Source of the DNA: Candidatus Bathyarchaeota archaeon | GTDB lineage: Archaea > Thermoproteota > Bathyarchaeia > 40CM-2-53-6 | Assembly: GCA_005888755.1 (NCBI GenBank) | Contig: VBBQ01000042.1 | Location: 1-43,903, forward strand | Reading direction: 5' to 3' | Length of the DNA: 43,903 nucleotides | Shown: one piece after another, positions 3,960 to 39,999 of the stretch | Layout: the number at the start of each line of letters is the position of its first letter | How positions within the stretch are numbered: the stretch's first letter is position 1 | Position numbers and translations under genes: made by a program | Notes under the pieces: model-generated | What the model saw: the letters and a program-made list of their open reading frames with translations, nothing else | Database searches by the model: none | What the model was told of the DNA's origin: nothing

Positions 3960-5207
3960 ATGGTCAAGAAGCGGGTCGACGTACTAGTTCTGAACTCTAA
4001 CGAAACCATAACCCTAGACTCTCCTGAGATTGAAAACGGGCTTGGCATTGTCGACAATGGAGGTGTCGCGATAGACAAGGGCAAGATCGTTTTGGCGGCG
4101 TCGACCGACTTACTCGAACGAAAATTCCGGGCTGGAAGGACAATTAATGCCGAGGACGAAATTATTCTGCCTGGGCTCGTGGATCCTCACACCCATTTGG
4201 TCTTCGCCGGCGCTCGTGACGCCGAGTTTCAGCTTCGGATAGCGGGCGTTTCATACATGGAAATCCTCCGGAAGGGCGGAGGGATAATCGAGACGGTGAA
4301 CCGTACACGACAAGCCAGCCAAGAATCGCTGTTTCAATTTGGAAAACAGAGACTGGATACGTGTCTTGAATCTGGCTCGACGACCGTGGAGATAAAGAGC
4401 GGGTACGGACTAAGACTGGACGACGAGCTTAAGATTCTCAGGACAGTGCAACGTCTAGGGAATGACCATCCTTGCAATATCGTTCCCACGTTTATGGGGG
4501 CTCACGCTGTTCCGCCGGGAGAGACCTCGTCGGAGTACGTTTCAAGTGTGATTAAGGAAATGTTGCCAAGGGTTGCTCAAGCGGGACTTGCAGAATTTTG
4601 CGATGTATTCTGTGAACAAGGAGTATTCGATTCGATCGAGTCAGAAAGGATTCTCAGGAAGGCAGCGAAACTCGGTCTTAAGCCTAAGATACACGCCGAC
4701 CAGTTCACGGGTTGTGGAGGAGCGGAGGTTGCGAACAAACTTCACGCTACCTCTGCGGATCACCTGATCCATTCATCGGCGAAACAATTCGAACAGATGA
4801 CAAAAACGGGCGTGATACCGGTCTTGCTGCCATCGTCTTCACATAACCTTCTAGCCGGGGAAAACGCGGATGCCCGAGGTATGCTTGGGATGGGCCTCCC
4901 CGTGGCTTTGGGAACAGATTTCAGCCCGTCCAACTGGATGCTGGGGCAACTGTCGGTCGCTGCTCTTGCGTCTCGAGAGTTGAGAATGAACGCTCCTGAG
5001 ATCATCCGAGGGATAACGATCAATGCGGCTCGAGCGCTAGGATTGGAGAAGAGGGTCGGAAGCCTCCATCGAGGCAAGCAAGCGGATCTTGTGACGTTGC
5101 GCGCACCCAACCATCGATGGGTCGGATACACATACGGTGAACGGGTCGTTGACAATGTCCTTATCGAGGGCGAACCAGTAGTGAAGGACGGTAAGAGAAT
5201 TCCTTGA
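3960..5207 (+). CDS. hutI: Imidazolonepropionase
   Basis: Third enzyme of histidine degradation, hydrolysing 4-imidazolone-5-propionate to N-formimino-glutamate. The 415-residue amidohydrolase shows the metal-binding HxH in [21 protein letters not shown], the substrate histidine region MGAHAVP, a further metal His in PKIHADQF and the catalytic/metal Asp in [11 protein letters not shown]. The C-terminal [12 protein letters not shown] is typical of cyclic amidohydrolases. The ATG at 3960 has a strong purine-rich ribosome site. Its stop overlaps the TTG start of hutU by 4 bases, so the pair is a translationally coupled operon. Confidence 0.96.
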
Positions 5208-6895
5208 CTCAAAGGCGAAAGCCTCGAGCCTTTTCAGTACTTCAGAACCGAAGGAGGATATCCGCAATTACTGGGACGAAGCTACACTGCAAGAGCTGGC
5301 AGATAGAAGGTGCTTACCGGATGCTTCACAACGTCTTAGATCGAGATGTTGCCAAAGATCCCGATCACCTGATCGTTTATGGTGGGACCGGACGAGCAGC
5401 CCGGTCTTGGGATGCACTTGAAGCAACACTTGATTCGCTAGAGACCTTAGGCGAAGATCAGACACTTCTCATTCAAAGCGGTAAACCGGTGGCGGTTTTC
5501 AAGACCCATAGATTGGCTCCTCGAGTCCTAATCGTTAACAGCATGATTGTTCCCAAATGGGCGACCTGGGACTACTTCTACGAACTTGAACAGAAGGGGC
5601 TCATCATGTACGGACAAATGACTGCAGGGTCTTGGGCTTACATCGGAACTCAGGGTATACTTCAGGGCACATACGAAACGCTCGCGGCAGTTGCCAAGGA
5701 ACACTTCCAGGGAACACTCGCTGGAAGACTCGTATTGACCGCGGGCCTAGGCGAGATGGGAGGTGCTCAGCCTTTGGCCGTGACAATGAACGATGGCATC
5801 GCCCTGGCAGTAGAGATGGACAAGAAGGCCATCGAGAAGACAATCCGTCATGGATATCTGCAAAGAATGGCCGGGGACCTGGATGAGGCGCTGGATATTG
5901 TGCAGGATGCAAAGCTAGACCGAGTTCCTTGCAGCGTGGGTCTGATTGGGAACGCCGCCGAGGTACACCCTGAGCTCCTGAGACGTGGCATAATCCCTGA
6001 CGTTGTGACCGACCAAACATCTGCTCATGATCCTCTGAACGGCTATTATCCAGCTGGCCTTTCAAAGGAAGAAGCCGATTCCCTTCGCCGATCCAATCCG
6101 AAAGAATACATGAAGAGGGCCAGCCAAAGTATCCGCACACATGTCAAGACTATGATTGCCATGTCGCGACGAGGAGCTGTGGCATTCGAGTACGGAAACA
6201 ACATCCGGCAGCAGGCGCTGGACGTGGGATTGAAGAACGCCTTCGAATTCCCGGGATTTGTCCAGCGCTACATTAGACCAATGTTCTGCGAAGGCAGAGG
6301 ACCGTTCAGATGGACCTCACTAGTCGGGGACCCAGAAGACATTCGCAAGATCGATGAGCTAGTTCTCTCCACCTTCCCTCAAGACAAAGGCCTCTCTCGG
6401 TGGATTCGGAAAGCTCAGAAAGAAGTGAAATTCCAGGGATTGCCAGCTAGAGTGTGCTGGCTCGGATTCGGAGAGCGAGCGAAATTCGGCGGACTGATAA
6501 ACGAGATGGTGGCGGATGGAGAGCTTTCCGGTCCGATCTGGATTGGAAGGGACCATCTTGACTGTGGAAGCGTTGCCTCTCCACGGCGAGAGACCGAGGG
6601 TATGCTTGACGGTAGTGATGCTATCGCCGACTGGCCCATATTGAACGCGCTTCTGAACACGGCGGCCGGGGCGACCTGGGTGAGCGTACATCAGGGTGGA
6701 GGTGTTGGAATGGGCTACAGCATTCACGCCGGAATGTGTCTCGTCGCGGATGGCACGACTGAGGCCGCAGGCAAGCTCGAGCGGGTATTGACTACTGATC
6801 CTGGAATAGGGATCGTTAGACATGCGGATGCAGGCTATACAACGGCGAAGAAAATCGCCAGGGAAAAGGGGATTAGGATGCCGATGCTCAAGTGA
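5204..6895 (+). CDS. hutU: Urocanate hydratase (urocanase)
   Basis: Second enzyme of histidine degradation, adding water to urocanate to give imidazolonepropionate with tightly bound NAD+. Characteristic blocks in order are [108 protein letters not shown] and [18 protein letters not shown], ending with [16 protein letters not shown]. At 563 residues it is close to the usual 550-560. The TTG at 5204 overlaps the hutI stop (TTGA). The first ~25 residues are not conserved, so a later start cannot be excluded. Confidence 0.96.
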
Positions 6896-7178
6896 CAACG
6901 AAAGAAAAATATCCGCACCAACGGAACGATGAGGGATTGGCATCCGAACTCCAACATCGTACTGGTTTTCTCGGGAGCACAAGTTGGGCTCCGGTCTTTT
7001 GCGTCGCGAGGGGTCGGTCGCTAAGACCCCCTTCGCCTAGAAACCACTTCCTGTCTGGCACTGATAATAGGGGAGTCAGGGGAATTAGGGCGCAATTCTG
7101 GTTCGAATGGCCTCTGAGAGAAGCGGACAATTCTGAACGAATTTCACGGGAGTATAGGGAGGTGTCGCCGATTCGAGA

Positions 7179-7973
7179 TCAGGGCCGATTACGGGTGATT
7201 TTTCGGAAAAGGAACGGCTGTGGGGGAATTTGGCTCATATAGAGGCAGTCTTTGATGGGAAGTATCATCGAGTCCGAGCGCTTTCCCATGCCGAATTGAA
7301 CTGGGGCTCCACGCACCAGCACGAATGGGATGGTCTCCCCGCTTTCCCCCATCAACAGTTGTGCCGCTCCAGCTATCCCGTCAGCCAGAGCTTGGAAGGT
7401 GATCAGCAGCTTTCGTCCGTACAAGTCCTTGGTCCCCCGTGAGTCCCGCACCGGATGGAATCCTGAGGATGCAATCGCGAGCCCTATCGTACCTAGGCGG
7501 AGAGGAGTGACCCGACTGTCGACAATGACGACACCAATTCTCTTCCGGAGCTTTCGATTCAGCCTTCTCCGAATTCTCTCAGCGGAACGATGTGGATCGA
7601 CCGGCCACGGAATAACGCTGTCAACGGGAGCATTCTTTCGGTCAACCCCCGAATTCGCTATTGCGTCCCCATTCTTGAGCGTGAGAAGAACACCAGGAAC
7701 TCCGCCGTAAACAGCATCAGCTTCGTTGATCACAACCTGAGCGAACTCTGGAAGCATTTCGAATCTACGACCAAGCTTCCTAGCCAAAGCCGTGGGCCTA
7801 ACCTTCGAGAGAGAAACGATGTTCCTCTCTGACATCGAGACAGCCTTACTCGCGACTGCAACTATGTCGTCGTTCTTGACCCTCAGTCCGGAAGCGGAAA
7901 GTGCTCCGACGAAACTTGCAGCTAACGAATCACCGGGGAGAACTACTTCGGACTTGAGGGGGTAGAGTTCCAC
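7179..7973 (-). CDS. cofE: Coenzyme F420-0:L-glutamate ligase
   Basis: GTP-dependent ligase that adds L-glutamate to coenzyme F420-0. Family motifs are NEADAVYGGVPGVLLTL, GDAIANSGVDRKNAP, VVIVDSRVTPLRLGTIGLAI, RDSRGTKDLYGRKL and a C-terminal MGESGETIPFVLVRG. The 264-residue length fits the archaeal single-domain enzyme rather than bacterial FbiB fusions. The GTG start at 7973 lies one base after the hutH stop, so cofE is the second gene of a hutH-cofE operon. Why a cofactor gene is coupled to histidine ammonia-lyase is unclear. The 283-base gap to hutU holds nothing I could recognise. Confidence 0.92.
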   Translation of the reverse strand: MELYPLKSEVVLPGDSLAASFVGALSASGLRVKNDDIVAVASKAVSMSERNIVSLSKVRPTALARKLGRRFEMLPEFAQVVINEADAVYGGVPGVLLTLKNGDAIANSGVDRKNAPVDSVIPWPVDPHRSAERIRRRLNRKLRKRIGVVIVDSRVTPLRLGTIGLAIASSGFHPVRDSRGTKDLYGRKLLITFQALADGIAGAAQLLMGESGETIPFVLVRGAPVQFGMGKRSDSMILPIKDCLYMSQIPPQPFLFRKITRNRP

Positions 7974-7974
7974 T

Positions 7975-9528
7975 CTAATCCGAATCCTTGGTGAATCGCC
8001 TTACCAGATCGCTGATCTGGCCGCCCTTGACCATTTCGAATACCCGCTCAATATCCTCGTGGGAAGACCTATCTTGCGTCAATGGCGGAACCACCTTCCT
8101 GATCGCCTCGTAGACCGTGTTGGTGCCTTTTCCCAGCCCCGACTCGCCCCGGAGATGGACAGCTTGAGCGGCCGTTAGGAGTTCTATCGCAACTACGTAC
8201 TGGCAATTCTCGAGAATGCTAGTTGATTTGTGGGCTGCGCCAGGTCCCATGCTCACGAAGTCTTCGAAGTTGCCGGAGGTGGGGATTGAGTCGCTGCTGG
8301 CTGGGTGGGTCAATATTTTGTTCTCCGCAACAAGAGCGGTCGCCGTGTATTGAAGGGCCATCAAACCACTTGCCAGGCCCGGTTTCGATTCCTTCCCAAC
8401 GAGGAAGGCTGTCAGGCCGTTGTTCAGCGACGCATCGAGCAGAGCGGATATTCTTCGCTCTGATATGTTCGCGGTGGTCGCGAGACCCAACGCCATTATG
8501 TCGAGAGCCATGGAAATTGGTTGCCCGTGAAAGTTACCACCCGATAGGCATACCTTGTCGTCTGGGAAAATGAGCGGGTTGTCTGTAGCCGAGTTCATTT
8601 CAATTTCAAATGTTGAACTAGCGTATCCCAGCGCGTCGATCACAGGCCCCATTACTTGGGGGGCGCATCGGAAAGAGTATGGGTCTTGAGGGCGTCCGTC
8701 ACCCGGATCGTCCTTAGTTATCGATCGGCACATCCCGCTGCCTTTTACAAGGGAGTGGATGTCCTTAGCAATTTGGACTTGTCCCGGGTGTTGTCTGACC
8801 CTGTGTATCCGCTCGTCGAACGGATCAACCCATCCTTTGATCGCCTCAAGAGAAAGCGCTAGCGCTGCTTCCGCTGTCTTCAACAGATTGTAGGAATCAT
8901 AGAGGTTGAGGCAGGCTATCGAGGTCATTTGCTGGGTGCCATTGTTGAGCGCGAGACCTTCTTTGGCCTCTAATTGGGCGGGATCCTGACCAATCTTTTG
9001 CAGGACTTGTTTGCCTCCCATCCATGTGCCCTTGTATTCGACTCTCCCTTCTCCCATTAGGACTAACGCCATGTGTGAAAGAGGGGAAAGGTCGCCGCTA
9101 GCCCCGACGGATCCCTTTTGGGGAATGTACGGATGAGCCCGTTTGTTGAGGAGTGCTACGATCAGTTGTGGAATTTCTGGCCTTATCCCTGAATTGCCTT
9201 TGATCAGAGTATTTGCTCGCAAGAGCATTATAGCCCTGACCACATCGGTTGAGTGGGGTTTGCCGACGCTTGAGGCATGACTTCGGAGCAAGTTCGCTTG
9301 CAGTTGCCTGAGATCCTCAGGCGCGACCTTTACGTTCGATAGCGCACCGAAACCTGTATTGACGCCGTAGATCACTTTGTCCTGTCGAAGTAACTTTTCA
9401 AGAACTGCCCTGCTTCTCATCGTTCTTCGCAGCGCCCTTCTGTCTATTCGGACCGCGGCGTTCCCTCGTGCCACAGATACTAGCTCCTGCAACGTCAGGC
9501 TTGATCCGTCGATTGTTATCTCGGCCAT
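7975..9528 (-). CDS. hutH: Histidine ammonia-lyase
   Basis: First step of histidine degradation: non-oxidative deamination to urocanate and ammonia. The Ala-Ser-Gly triad that cyclises to the MIO electrophile is in GSVGASGDLSPLSHMAL. Other active-site blocks are VIYGVNTGFGALSNV (catalytic Tyr), GLALNNGTQ, FEIEMNSATDNPL, SGGNFHGQPISMALD and SSDSIPTSGNFEDFVSMG. The frame is open to 9681, but the ATG at 9528 (MAEITIDGSSLT) gives 517 residues, the normal size, with GGAAGA-like purines before it. A TATA-like CTTATTTC lies near 9570. It faces hutIU head-to-head, so the pathway is in two converging units. Confidence 0.96.
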   Translation of the reverse strand: MAEITIDGSSLTLQELVSVARGNAAVRIDRRALRRTMRSRAVLEKLLRQDKVIYGVNTGFGALSNVKVAPEDLRQLQANLLRSHASSVGKPHSTDVVRAIMLLRANTLIKGNSGIRPEIPQLIVALLNKRAHPYIPQKGSVGASGDLSPLSHMALVLMGEGRVEYKGTWMGGKQVLQKIGQDPAQLEAKEGLALNNGTQQMTSIACLNLYDSYNLLKTAEAALALSLEAIKGWVDPFDERIHRVRQHPGQVQIAKDIHSLVKGSGMCRSITKDDPGDGRPQDPYSFRCAPQVMGPVIDALGYASSTFEIEMNSATDNPLIFPDDKVCLSGGNFHGQPISMALDIMALGLATTANISERRISALLDASLNNGLTAFLVGKESKPGLASGLMALQYTATALVAENKILTHPASSDSIPTSGNFEDFVSMGPGAAHKSTSILENCQYVVAIELLTAAQAVHLRGESGLGKGTNTVYEAIRKVVPPLTQDRSSHEDIERVFEMVKGGQISDLVRRFTKDSD

Positions 9529-9734
9529 TCTTCCACGAGAAAGTGGCACACTAGGATTTGAGAAATAAGGTTGGTTGTCCGTCCATCCAGACTCTCGTTT
9601 TCTCCAAGCATCTTGTTTCTCGTGATTATTACGACTCCTTTCGTGTCGGATCTTCAGGATCTCACCTTTCGAAGGGGCCAATTGGCTTTGACGTGTAACC
9701 CTGATATTCTGCTTCCAAACGTCGAGGCCTGACC

Positions 9735-22673: not shown

Positions 22674-23243
22674 TTAGGCTTTGAACCAGCTAAAAACGAG
22701 ATATCTTATCTCGTCCATCTTAGTATCTGGAATTGCGATGATGAATTGCTTCCTAACGGTCGTTGCTAGCCTTCCAGCTCGGACTACCTCGAAGGGCCCC
22801 ATGATGGACTCGGGATCTTCGACCGAGACGATGAACGGAGCATGATCAATTCCAGGTCCGTGCTCGTATACGGCAAAGTCAGCGCCGAACTTTATTCCGG
22901 GGGTGACGATGTAGCCTTTGTTTCTCAAGTCCTTGTACACTTGGTATGCTTGGCTGAATCCACGATAGGTCTCTCTAGCCTCTCTCAGTAAGAGTGATTT
23001 GCGAACAGGTTCTTTGGTCCTTCCGTCAATTACGGATATTCTGTGGTGCTCGAGGAGATAGAGTCCTTCCATGAGGTCGAGCAGAAGCGGGACTTCGAAG
23101 TCTTGGTCTGGTTTTGGTTTTGGTATTCCGACTGGTTTTCCGAAGAATCCCGAGCGGTAAATGTCAAGCCCGGTCTTTGCGTCCCATACGATGAGGCGGG
23201 TTCCGATAAGTTCCGCTTCGCCTTGGAGGGTCGTGGACTTCAT
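22674..23243 (-). CDS. endA: tRNA splicing endonuclease
   Basis: Cleaves both exon-intron borders of archaeal introns at bulge-helix-bulge motifs. The C-terminal catalytic domain is complete: YKDLRNKGYIVTPGIKFGADFAVYEHGPGIDHAPFIV carries the catalytic Tyr and His, and VRAGRLATTVRKQFIIAI the catalytic Lys. The N-terminal domain (~80 residues) contains YLLEHHRISV. At 189 residues it is the single-copy subunit size; whether a partner subunit exists elsewhere cannot be seen. It lies 7 bases after a DUF47 gene. Its substrates probably include the tRNA intron and the proposed pcm mRNA intron in this window. Confidence 0.93.
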   Translation of the reverse strand: MKSTTLQGEAELIGTRLIVWDAKTGLDIYRSGFFGKPVGIPKPKPDQDFEVPLLLDLMEGLYLLEHHRISVIDGRTKEPVRKSLLLREARETYRGFSQAYQVYKDLRNKGYIVTPGIKFGADFAVYEHGPGIDHAPFIVSVEDPESIMGPFEVVRAGRLATTVRKQFIIAIPDTKMDEIRYLVFSWFKA

Positions 23244-39541: not shown

Positions 39542-39693
39542 TGGCGGGCCCGGAGGGATTTGAACCCTCGACCATTCCCCGAACGAGTCGAATGGACTCG
39601 TCCTTCAGGTTAAGAGCTTCAGCCCTAGAGTCTGCTGCTCTACCTGGCTGAGCTGCCCGACTAGACCAGTATACTTGTCCGGTTTACGGGCCC
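39542..39693 (-). tRNA. tRNA-Lys (CUU) with multiple introns, CCA encoded
   Basis: Ends give a full acceptor stem: GGGCCCG (39693-39687) pairs with CGGGCCC (39552-39546), then discriminator G and an encoded CCA (39544-39542). T arm is GAGGG-TTCAAAT-CCCTC; D arm is GCTC-AGCCAGGTA-GAGC (39653-39637). A 31-base insert (39684-39654) separates position 9 from 10 and has a perfect BHB. Further inserts in the anticodon/variable part are needed. Removing ~14 bases (for example 39626-39613) and 30 bases (39604-39575) leaves exactly 74 nucleotides with loop CTCTTAA (anticodon CUU) and a 5-base variable loop. The anticodon stem then has only three clean pairs (CAG/CTG), so those borders and the isotype are tentative. 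Confidence 0.75.
39654..39684 (-). other. tRNA intron at position 9/10 with canonical BHB
   Basis: The central helix is acceptor-strand CCCG (39690-39687) with intron CGGG (39659-39656). The 5' bulge is TAA (39686-39684), the 3' bulge CAG (39655-39653), and the inner imperfect helix encloses a TATA loop. Cutting after the second base of each bulge joins GGGCCCGTA to GCTCAGCC, restoring a normal tRNA 5' half including U8. Confidence 0.8.
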
Positions 39694-39999
39694 ACGAACC
39701 CGCCGAAGGCTCGGTCCCGGCCGAATTTCTAATAAGGGTTACCGTTTCTGGTCGCAAAATTGATCCGGACCAAAGTGGATGATGGGGCGAGGAATTCTTG
39801 ACCTTAGTCGATCAAGGGATGAGGGTTAAGGAAGGACGATGTCACGCACGCTACTCTTGGGCCAGAGGCGATCTTTCCTCAGCTTCGAGAGAAGCGTTGG
39901 TGTCCCTCGCCTGCTTCCGTTTCGGTAACACAAGCCTTCCCCGACACCTTGGATAGCCGCTTCGTGGATGATGCTGCAGGTTACTTAGGCTGGGCGCTG
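39694..39999. other. Intergenic region between divergent tRNA-Lys and KaiC-like gene
   Basis: The 306 bases hold no gene I can support. On minus, CTTATTAGAAATT (about 39727-39740) is a plausible TATA element for the tRNA. On plus, CTTGA/TCAAG repeats near 39795-39815 and a GGTTACTTAGG stretch near 39979 may belong to the KaiC-like gene's promoter. The frame of that gene is open to 39949, but its conserved N terminus begins at 40000. Confidence 0.4.

Follow-up and report, generated by a model that had tools for sequence, protein, structure and literature searches.

We propose that a tRNA-Lys(CUU) gene on the minus strand of the window (the whole 43,903-nucleotide stretch analysed), whose host is a soil Bathyarchaeia genus, carries in its 5' leader a surrogate acceptor strand, which would allow an intron at position 9/10 to be spliced before RNase P acts. 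The gene (39693-39542) is interrupted by three BHB introns, and this intron and gene structure is near certain. We consider it probable, on the evidence of sequence comparison and folding models, that the leader has such a role, and we hold with the same good confidence the joint claim that the gene encodes a functional tRNA-Lys(CUU) and that its splicing depends on the leader clamp. The proposal gives a concrete answer to the question of how an intron whose splice motif is in competition with the acceptor stem can still be recognised. The trick that it describes for splicing at so inconvenient a site is simple and testable, and in it the tRNA leader, normally ignored in annotation, can belong to the splicing substrate. 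Knowledge of the leader would also aid tRNA finders in intron-rich archaea, where genes fall below threshold or are misread (here as tRNA-Pyl).

The features of the locus are listed in Table 1. Once the three introns are removed, ARAGORN calls tRNA-Lys(ctt), a cloverleaf with anticodon CUU. The initial annotation had proposed a BHB intron at 9/10 of a tRNA-Lys between 39654 and 39684, coordinates that run 3' to 5' because the gene is on the minus strand, and the insert matches intron 1 exactly in its 31 nt, its site and its structure; introns 2 and 3 and the leader element had been overlooked. It had also anticipated that a standard scan could miss the gene, which is the case: ARAGORN calls zero tRNAs in the whole window, and Rfam at the gathering threshold gives no match there, the tRNA model reaching 23.4 bits against a cut-off of 29. 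An assignment to tRNA-Pyl was rejected; ARAGORN reads a CTA anticodon solely when intron 2 is left in, and the mature sequence does not carry CUA. Another intact tRNA-Lys(CUU) in the genome, named at the outset as one part of what would speak against the locus, was looked for by homology search and none was found, the other lysine gene detected being Lys(UUU).

Table 1. Features of the tRNA-Lys(CUU) locus and of a splicing endonuclease gene in the window.
Feature	Position	Strand	Description	Basis
TATA-like box	39729..39736	-	CTTATTAG; centre at -39 relative to tRNA +1	consensus match
Leader clamp	39695..39704	-	GGCGGGTTCG; from -11 to -2, with 10 nt of complementarity to tRNA 66-75 (CGGGCCCGCC)	
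Exon 1	39685..39693	-	GGGCCCG acceptor 5' strand plus U8 and A9, read GGGCCCGTA	sequence; ARAGORN mature tRNA
Intron 1, site 9/10	39654..39684	-	31 nt; core CCCG/CGGG, bulges TAA and CAG	sequence, genus conservation, site used beyond genus
Exon 2	39632..39653	-	G10-G30 (D arm, 5' anticodon stem), GCTCAGCCAGGTAGAGCAGCAG	sequence, alignment
Intron 2, site 30/31	39618..39631	-	14 nt, ACTCTAGGGCTGAA	sequence, genus conservation, same-place insertion in other families of the order
Exon 3	39604..39617	-	GCTCTTAACCTGAA; anticodon CTT at 39614-39612	sequence; ARAGORN on spliced sequence
Intron 3, variable loop	39576..39603	-	28 nt by strict BHB; alternative 30 nt, to 39574	sequence
Exon 4	39542..39575	-	end of variable loop, T arm, acceptor 3' strand, discriminator G, encoded CCA; ATGGTCGAGGGTTCAAATCCCTCCGGGCCCGCCA after the 28-nt insert	sequence; ARAGORN
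Splicing endonuclease subunit	22674..23243	-	catalytic-type tRNA splicing endonuclease subunit, 189 aa	PF01974 E 4.9e-27; TIGR00324 above cut-off

The central helix of the intron 1 BHB is formed between exon and intron over 4 bp, the CCCG of the acceptor pairing with the CGGG of the insert just as first described, and both three-base bulges are also as claimed. In these and in the bulges given below the borders fall between the second and third residues, which is an experimentally established rule (PMC4307357), and cutting intron 1 at them joins GGGCCCGTA to GCTC and yields a normal tRNA 5' half, as had been predicted, with the spliced exons reading GGGCCCG-TA followed by GCTCAGCCAGGTAGAGC. 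Helices flank the core on both sides. The outer helix is GGG/CUC (acceptor 1-3), while the inner helix ACCGGAC/GUCUAGU forms 6/7 pairs and holds one C.A mismatch, in place of which other genus members have a C-G pair. Hence the motif, initially called perfect, is complete in its core but not perfect throughout. On this structure the intron would be removed by the splicing endonuclease of the cell.

Two further introns follow the same pattern. Intron 2 has outer helix GAG/CTC, core CAGC/GCTG and bulges AGA and AAG, and the 30/31 insertion is kept in the genus and is present also in further families of the order, whether a 9/10 intron accompanies it or not. The same isoacceptor is split into two genes joined at 30/31 in Nanoarchaeum equitans and Staphylothermus (PMC3218864), whereas the present gene is interrupted there by a cis intron of 14 nt, and since the insertion is common across the order, it may represent an older, cis form of the split tRNA-Lys(CUU). 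Intron 3 has a strict BHB (CCTG with bulge AAG, CGGG with bulge GAA) around the hairpin ACGAGTC/GACTCGT, and a relative that lacks it (L044) reads CCCGAAGGTC at this place. The strict cut would leave a 7-nt variable loop and the alternative cut a 5-nt loop but with a larger 3' bulge; the 3' border is uncertain by 2 nt. The relatives L045, L050 and L162 repeat the four-base spacing between GGG and GGTC in this region. Variable-arm introns are known in both tRNA-Lys genes of Aeropyrum pernix (PMC4307357), which resemble intron 3 in position; the gene described here differs in holding three introns.

The 9/10 site is used well beyond this gene. Intron 1, and likewise the whole gene, is present in 12/12 genomes of the genus with an intact locus, own genome counted; the 5' part of the locus is an N gap in the thirteenth. 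When 256 genomes of the class were searched by pattern, 33 had a 9/10 insertion, nearly all of one order and in Lys(CUU) or Lys(UUU), and the same survey yielded three genes in G211 and one in G223. A phylum sample of 398 genomes added G297 (two genes) and G453, which belong to other classes, and the total is 36 distinct 9/10 introns. Since they come from several Thermoproteota families and classes, the site is not unique to this gene, and its initial description as rare needs to be qualified: it is recurrent in lysine tRNAs of this Bathyarchaeia order and scattered in other Thermoproteota. Three genomes of the same order (G013, G015 and G016) have a Lys(CUU) without the 9/10 insertion. Of the 36 distinct introns, 32 have all 4 bp of the central helix, and the inner helix covaries, pair 1 being A-U, G-C or U-A and pair 4 being G-C, G-U, C-G or A-U. 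The wider set was gathered with patterns that demand GGGC acceptors and a lysine-like D arm, and generality beyond lysine tRNAs therefore rests on one anticodon, CAT (L072). Several pattern matches were discarded as chance or as lying immediately before tRNAs that lack a 9/10 intron, namely L070, the bacterial L067 and L071, and the matches of the phylum sample outside the class other than G297 and G453. The genome G211 (Bathyarchaeota S4B2_HD70) has 9/10 introns in all three of L072, L091 and L092, one of which has the CAT anticodon and one of which is without a clamp.

Non-canonical introns, including those of the acceptor region, are already known as a class (PMC12397907). The introns described here are like the non-canonical BHB introns of Thermoproteales, Thaumarchaeota, Aigarchaeota and other archaea (PMC8450103, PMC3293823) in their 4-bp core, in their two 3-nt bulges, each cut after its second residue, and in the presence of several introns per tRNA, but differ in that the 9/10 site lies directly against the acceptor stem and is associated with a complementary 5' leader. 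The literature covered by our search, which lay outside the main intron catalogues (e.g. RNA 2007 13:671), mentions neither the 9/10 site nor a leader clamp, and absence from the literature is therefore not shown.

A BHB located at 9/10 has to draw on acceptor nucleotides 4-7, with 1-3 in the outer helix, and thus competes with the pairing of the acceptor stem to nucleotides 66-72. Intron 1 is apparently recognisable solely if the leader replaces half of this stem, and the sequences immediately upstream of such genes are strongly associated with the presence of the intron. When the best contiguous helix between leader and 3' strand was scored within 25 nt, 34/35 genes with a 9/10 intron reached a pairing score of at least 18 (6-11 contiguous pairs) versus 0/30 control genes that have the same acceptor and no 9/10 intron, with median scores of 26 and 10, respectively. 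The nominal Fisher p value of 1e-17 overstates independence because the compared genes are related, and contrasts within single genomes are the stronger evidence. In three genomes (G005, G006 and G021) both intron and clamp are present in Lys(CUU) and neither in Lys(UUU), and G020 is the reverse, with both in Lys(UUU) and neither in Lys(CUU). The Lys(UUU) gene of the own genome (L159) has the same acceptor and CCA end and a D-arm insertion, with no 9/10 intron and, by eye, no visible clamp. The clamp also tracks the 3' end where this end is altered. In L072 the tRNA ends GCCCACCA and GGTGGGC in the leader matches GCCCACC, and in L177, where the leader has TAGCGGG and the gene continues GCTA and not GCCA, TAGCGGGTCC matches GGGCCCGCTA. 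A different solution is seen in L058, L162 and L163, whose leaders repeat the acceptor 5' strand exactly or nearly so (as GGGCCCG or GGGCTCG), and this repeat pairs with the same 3' strand. The one exception is L092, the Lys-CUU of G211, which has a 9/10 intron without a clamp.

Predicted folds agree with this association. For the gene in the window, a precursor starting at +1 is predicted to form the acceptor stem (P 0.99) and not the BHB core (P 0.00), and the predicted probability of the BHB core becomes 0.99 with a leader of 10-18 nt and 0.75 with a 22-nt leader. Among shuffled 22-nt leaders 45/200 at least equal the native one, and folding by itself is therefore not specific. Over 35 genes the mean probability of the BHB core is 0.62 with the native 14-nt leader and falls to 0.26 when leaders are shuffled, to 0.03 when they consist of A/T and to 0.02 when there is none; the probability exceeds 0.5 in 22/35 genes with the native leader and in 0 without a leader, and in 13/35 genes the native 14-nt leader fails to lift it above 0.5. 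Shuffled G-rich leaders can pair with the G/C-rich 3' end, and the folding is therefore to be read as support, not as proof.

The TATA-like box is conserved in the genus alignment, and most genes that have a 9/10 intron carry a similar box, roughly between -36 and -42. In the gene of the window its position at -39, taken with the usual archaeal spacing, would place the transcription start at about -12, so that the transcript would begin with the clamp. In the proposed mechanism, a transcribed leader of about 12 nt containing GGCGGGTTCG would pair with nucleotides 66-75 and replace the acceptor 5' strand, and the freed CCCG (4-7) would pair with the intron CGGG and present both bulges. The endonuclease would then cut both bulges, the exons would be ligated, exon 1 would take the place of the leader on the 3' strand, and a cut by RNase P at +1 would come last. 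Because the BHB needs an acceptor strand freed by the leader, the 9/10 intron should leave before 5' maturation. The intron, its BHB and the complementarity between leader and 3' strand can be read directly from the sequence, and comparison of genes shows that the intron is conserved and goes together with the leader element; the transcription start, the cleavage, the strand exchange and the order of events we infer. We also lean, with less assurance than for the role of the leader in this gene, towards the wider reading in which the leader is an obligatory surrogate strand that fixes the order of splicing before RNase P and that arose in several Thermoproteota lineages with two sequence solutions. 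The proposed order is opposite to that in Methanopyrus kandleri, where end trimming precedes intron removal (PMC3695527).

That intron 1 is an ordinary BHB intron at an unusual site, recognised by the endonuclease during transient openings of the acceptor stem, with a complementarity that is incidental or a feature of the promoter or of initiation, seems to us unlikely. Some archaeal endonucleases do accept relaxed motifs (PMC12397907), and the clamps, near -11, stand where transcription is likely to start. However, the complementarity occurs in 0 of the same-acceptor genes without the intron, TATA-like boxes stand at similar distances in both sets, and an upstream shift of the box in clamp genes was tested for and not found (medians of -39 and -40). 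Moreover, the clamp changes together with the 3' end and takes two different sequence forms, which argues against an incidental or promoter origin. We regard it as highly improbable that the locus has decayed into a pseudogene or that its 9/10 site is left unprocessed, in spite of its rejection by the scanners and of its being known here from its DNA, since the exons are intact and conserved in the genus, the intron helices covary, and this is the sole CUU lysine gene found in the genome.

The clamp might instead act mainly on RNase P, the leader covering the 3' RCCA and thereby shielding the precursor until it is spliced, with the freeing of the acceptor strand as a secondary effect. In bacteria the pairing of the leader with the 3' RCCA slows processing by RNase P (PMC9433436), and most clamps extend into the CCA or its genomic equivalent, but the acceptor-copy clamps of L058, L162 and L163 pair with nucleotides 66-73 and not with the CCA end, and the predicted BHB is absent without a leader whatever RNase P does. 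As the main role of the clamp such a delay is distinctly unlikely, and yet it is compatible with the leader serving as a surrogate acceptor strand, the two not being mutually exclusive; a slowing of RNase P by leader-RCCA pairing would help to keep the order in which splicing comes first. The bacterial and archaeal cases are alike in that the leader pairs with the tRNA 3' end. In bacteria this pairing lengthens an acceptor stem that is itself intact, to the hindrance of RNase P (PMC9433436), whereas the surrogate strand proposed here would replace one strand of the stem and enable splicing.

The window also encodes a likely processing enzyme for the introns of tRNA-Lys(CUU). The gene of the 189-aa endonuclease subunit lies about 16 kb from the tRNA gene, and the best solved match of its product is 3p1z_B, a tRNA-splicing endonuclease chain (E 4e-42). 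A second endonuclease-type protein of 176 aa with PF01974, a divergent paralogue, is encoded on contig C32, and the two proteins are consistent with a heteromeric enzyme of broad specificity. The (alpha beta)2 type of splicing endonuclease, which combines two unlike short paralogues, one catalytic and one structural, would be a candidate.

Most tRNA genes of the own genome look interrupted by eye, many of them by more than one insertion, and its tRNA set therefore seems strongly intron-rich. The tRNA-Lys(UUU) gene on contig C21 (about 1458-1621) has, besides its D-loop insertion, others in the anticodon arm. Elsewhere in the window, at 3960-9681, there are ORFs whose translations resemble, by eye, enzymes of histidine degradation, namely imidazolonepropionase, urocanase and histidine ammonia-lyase.
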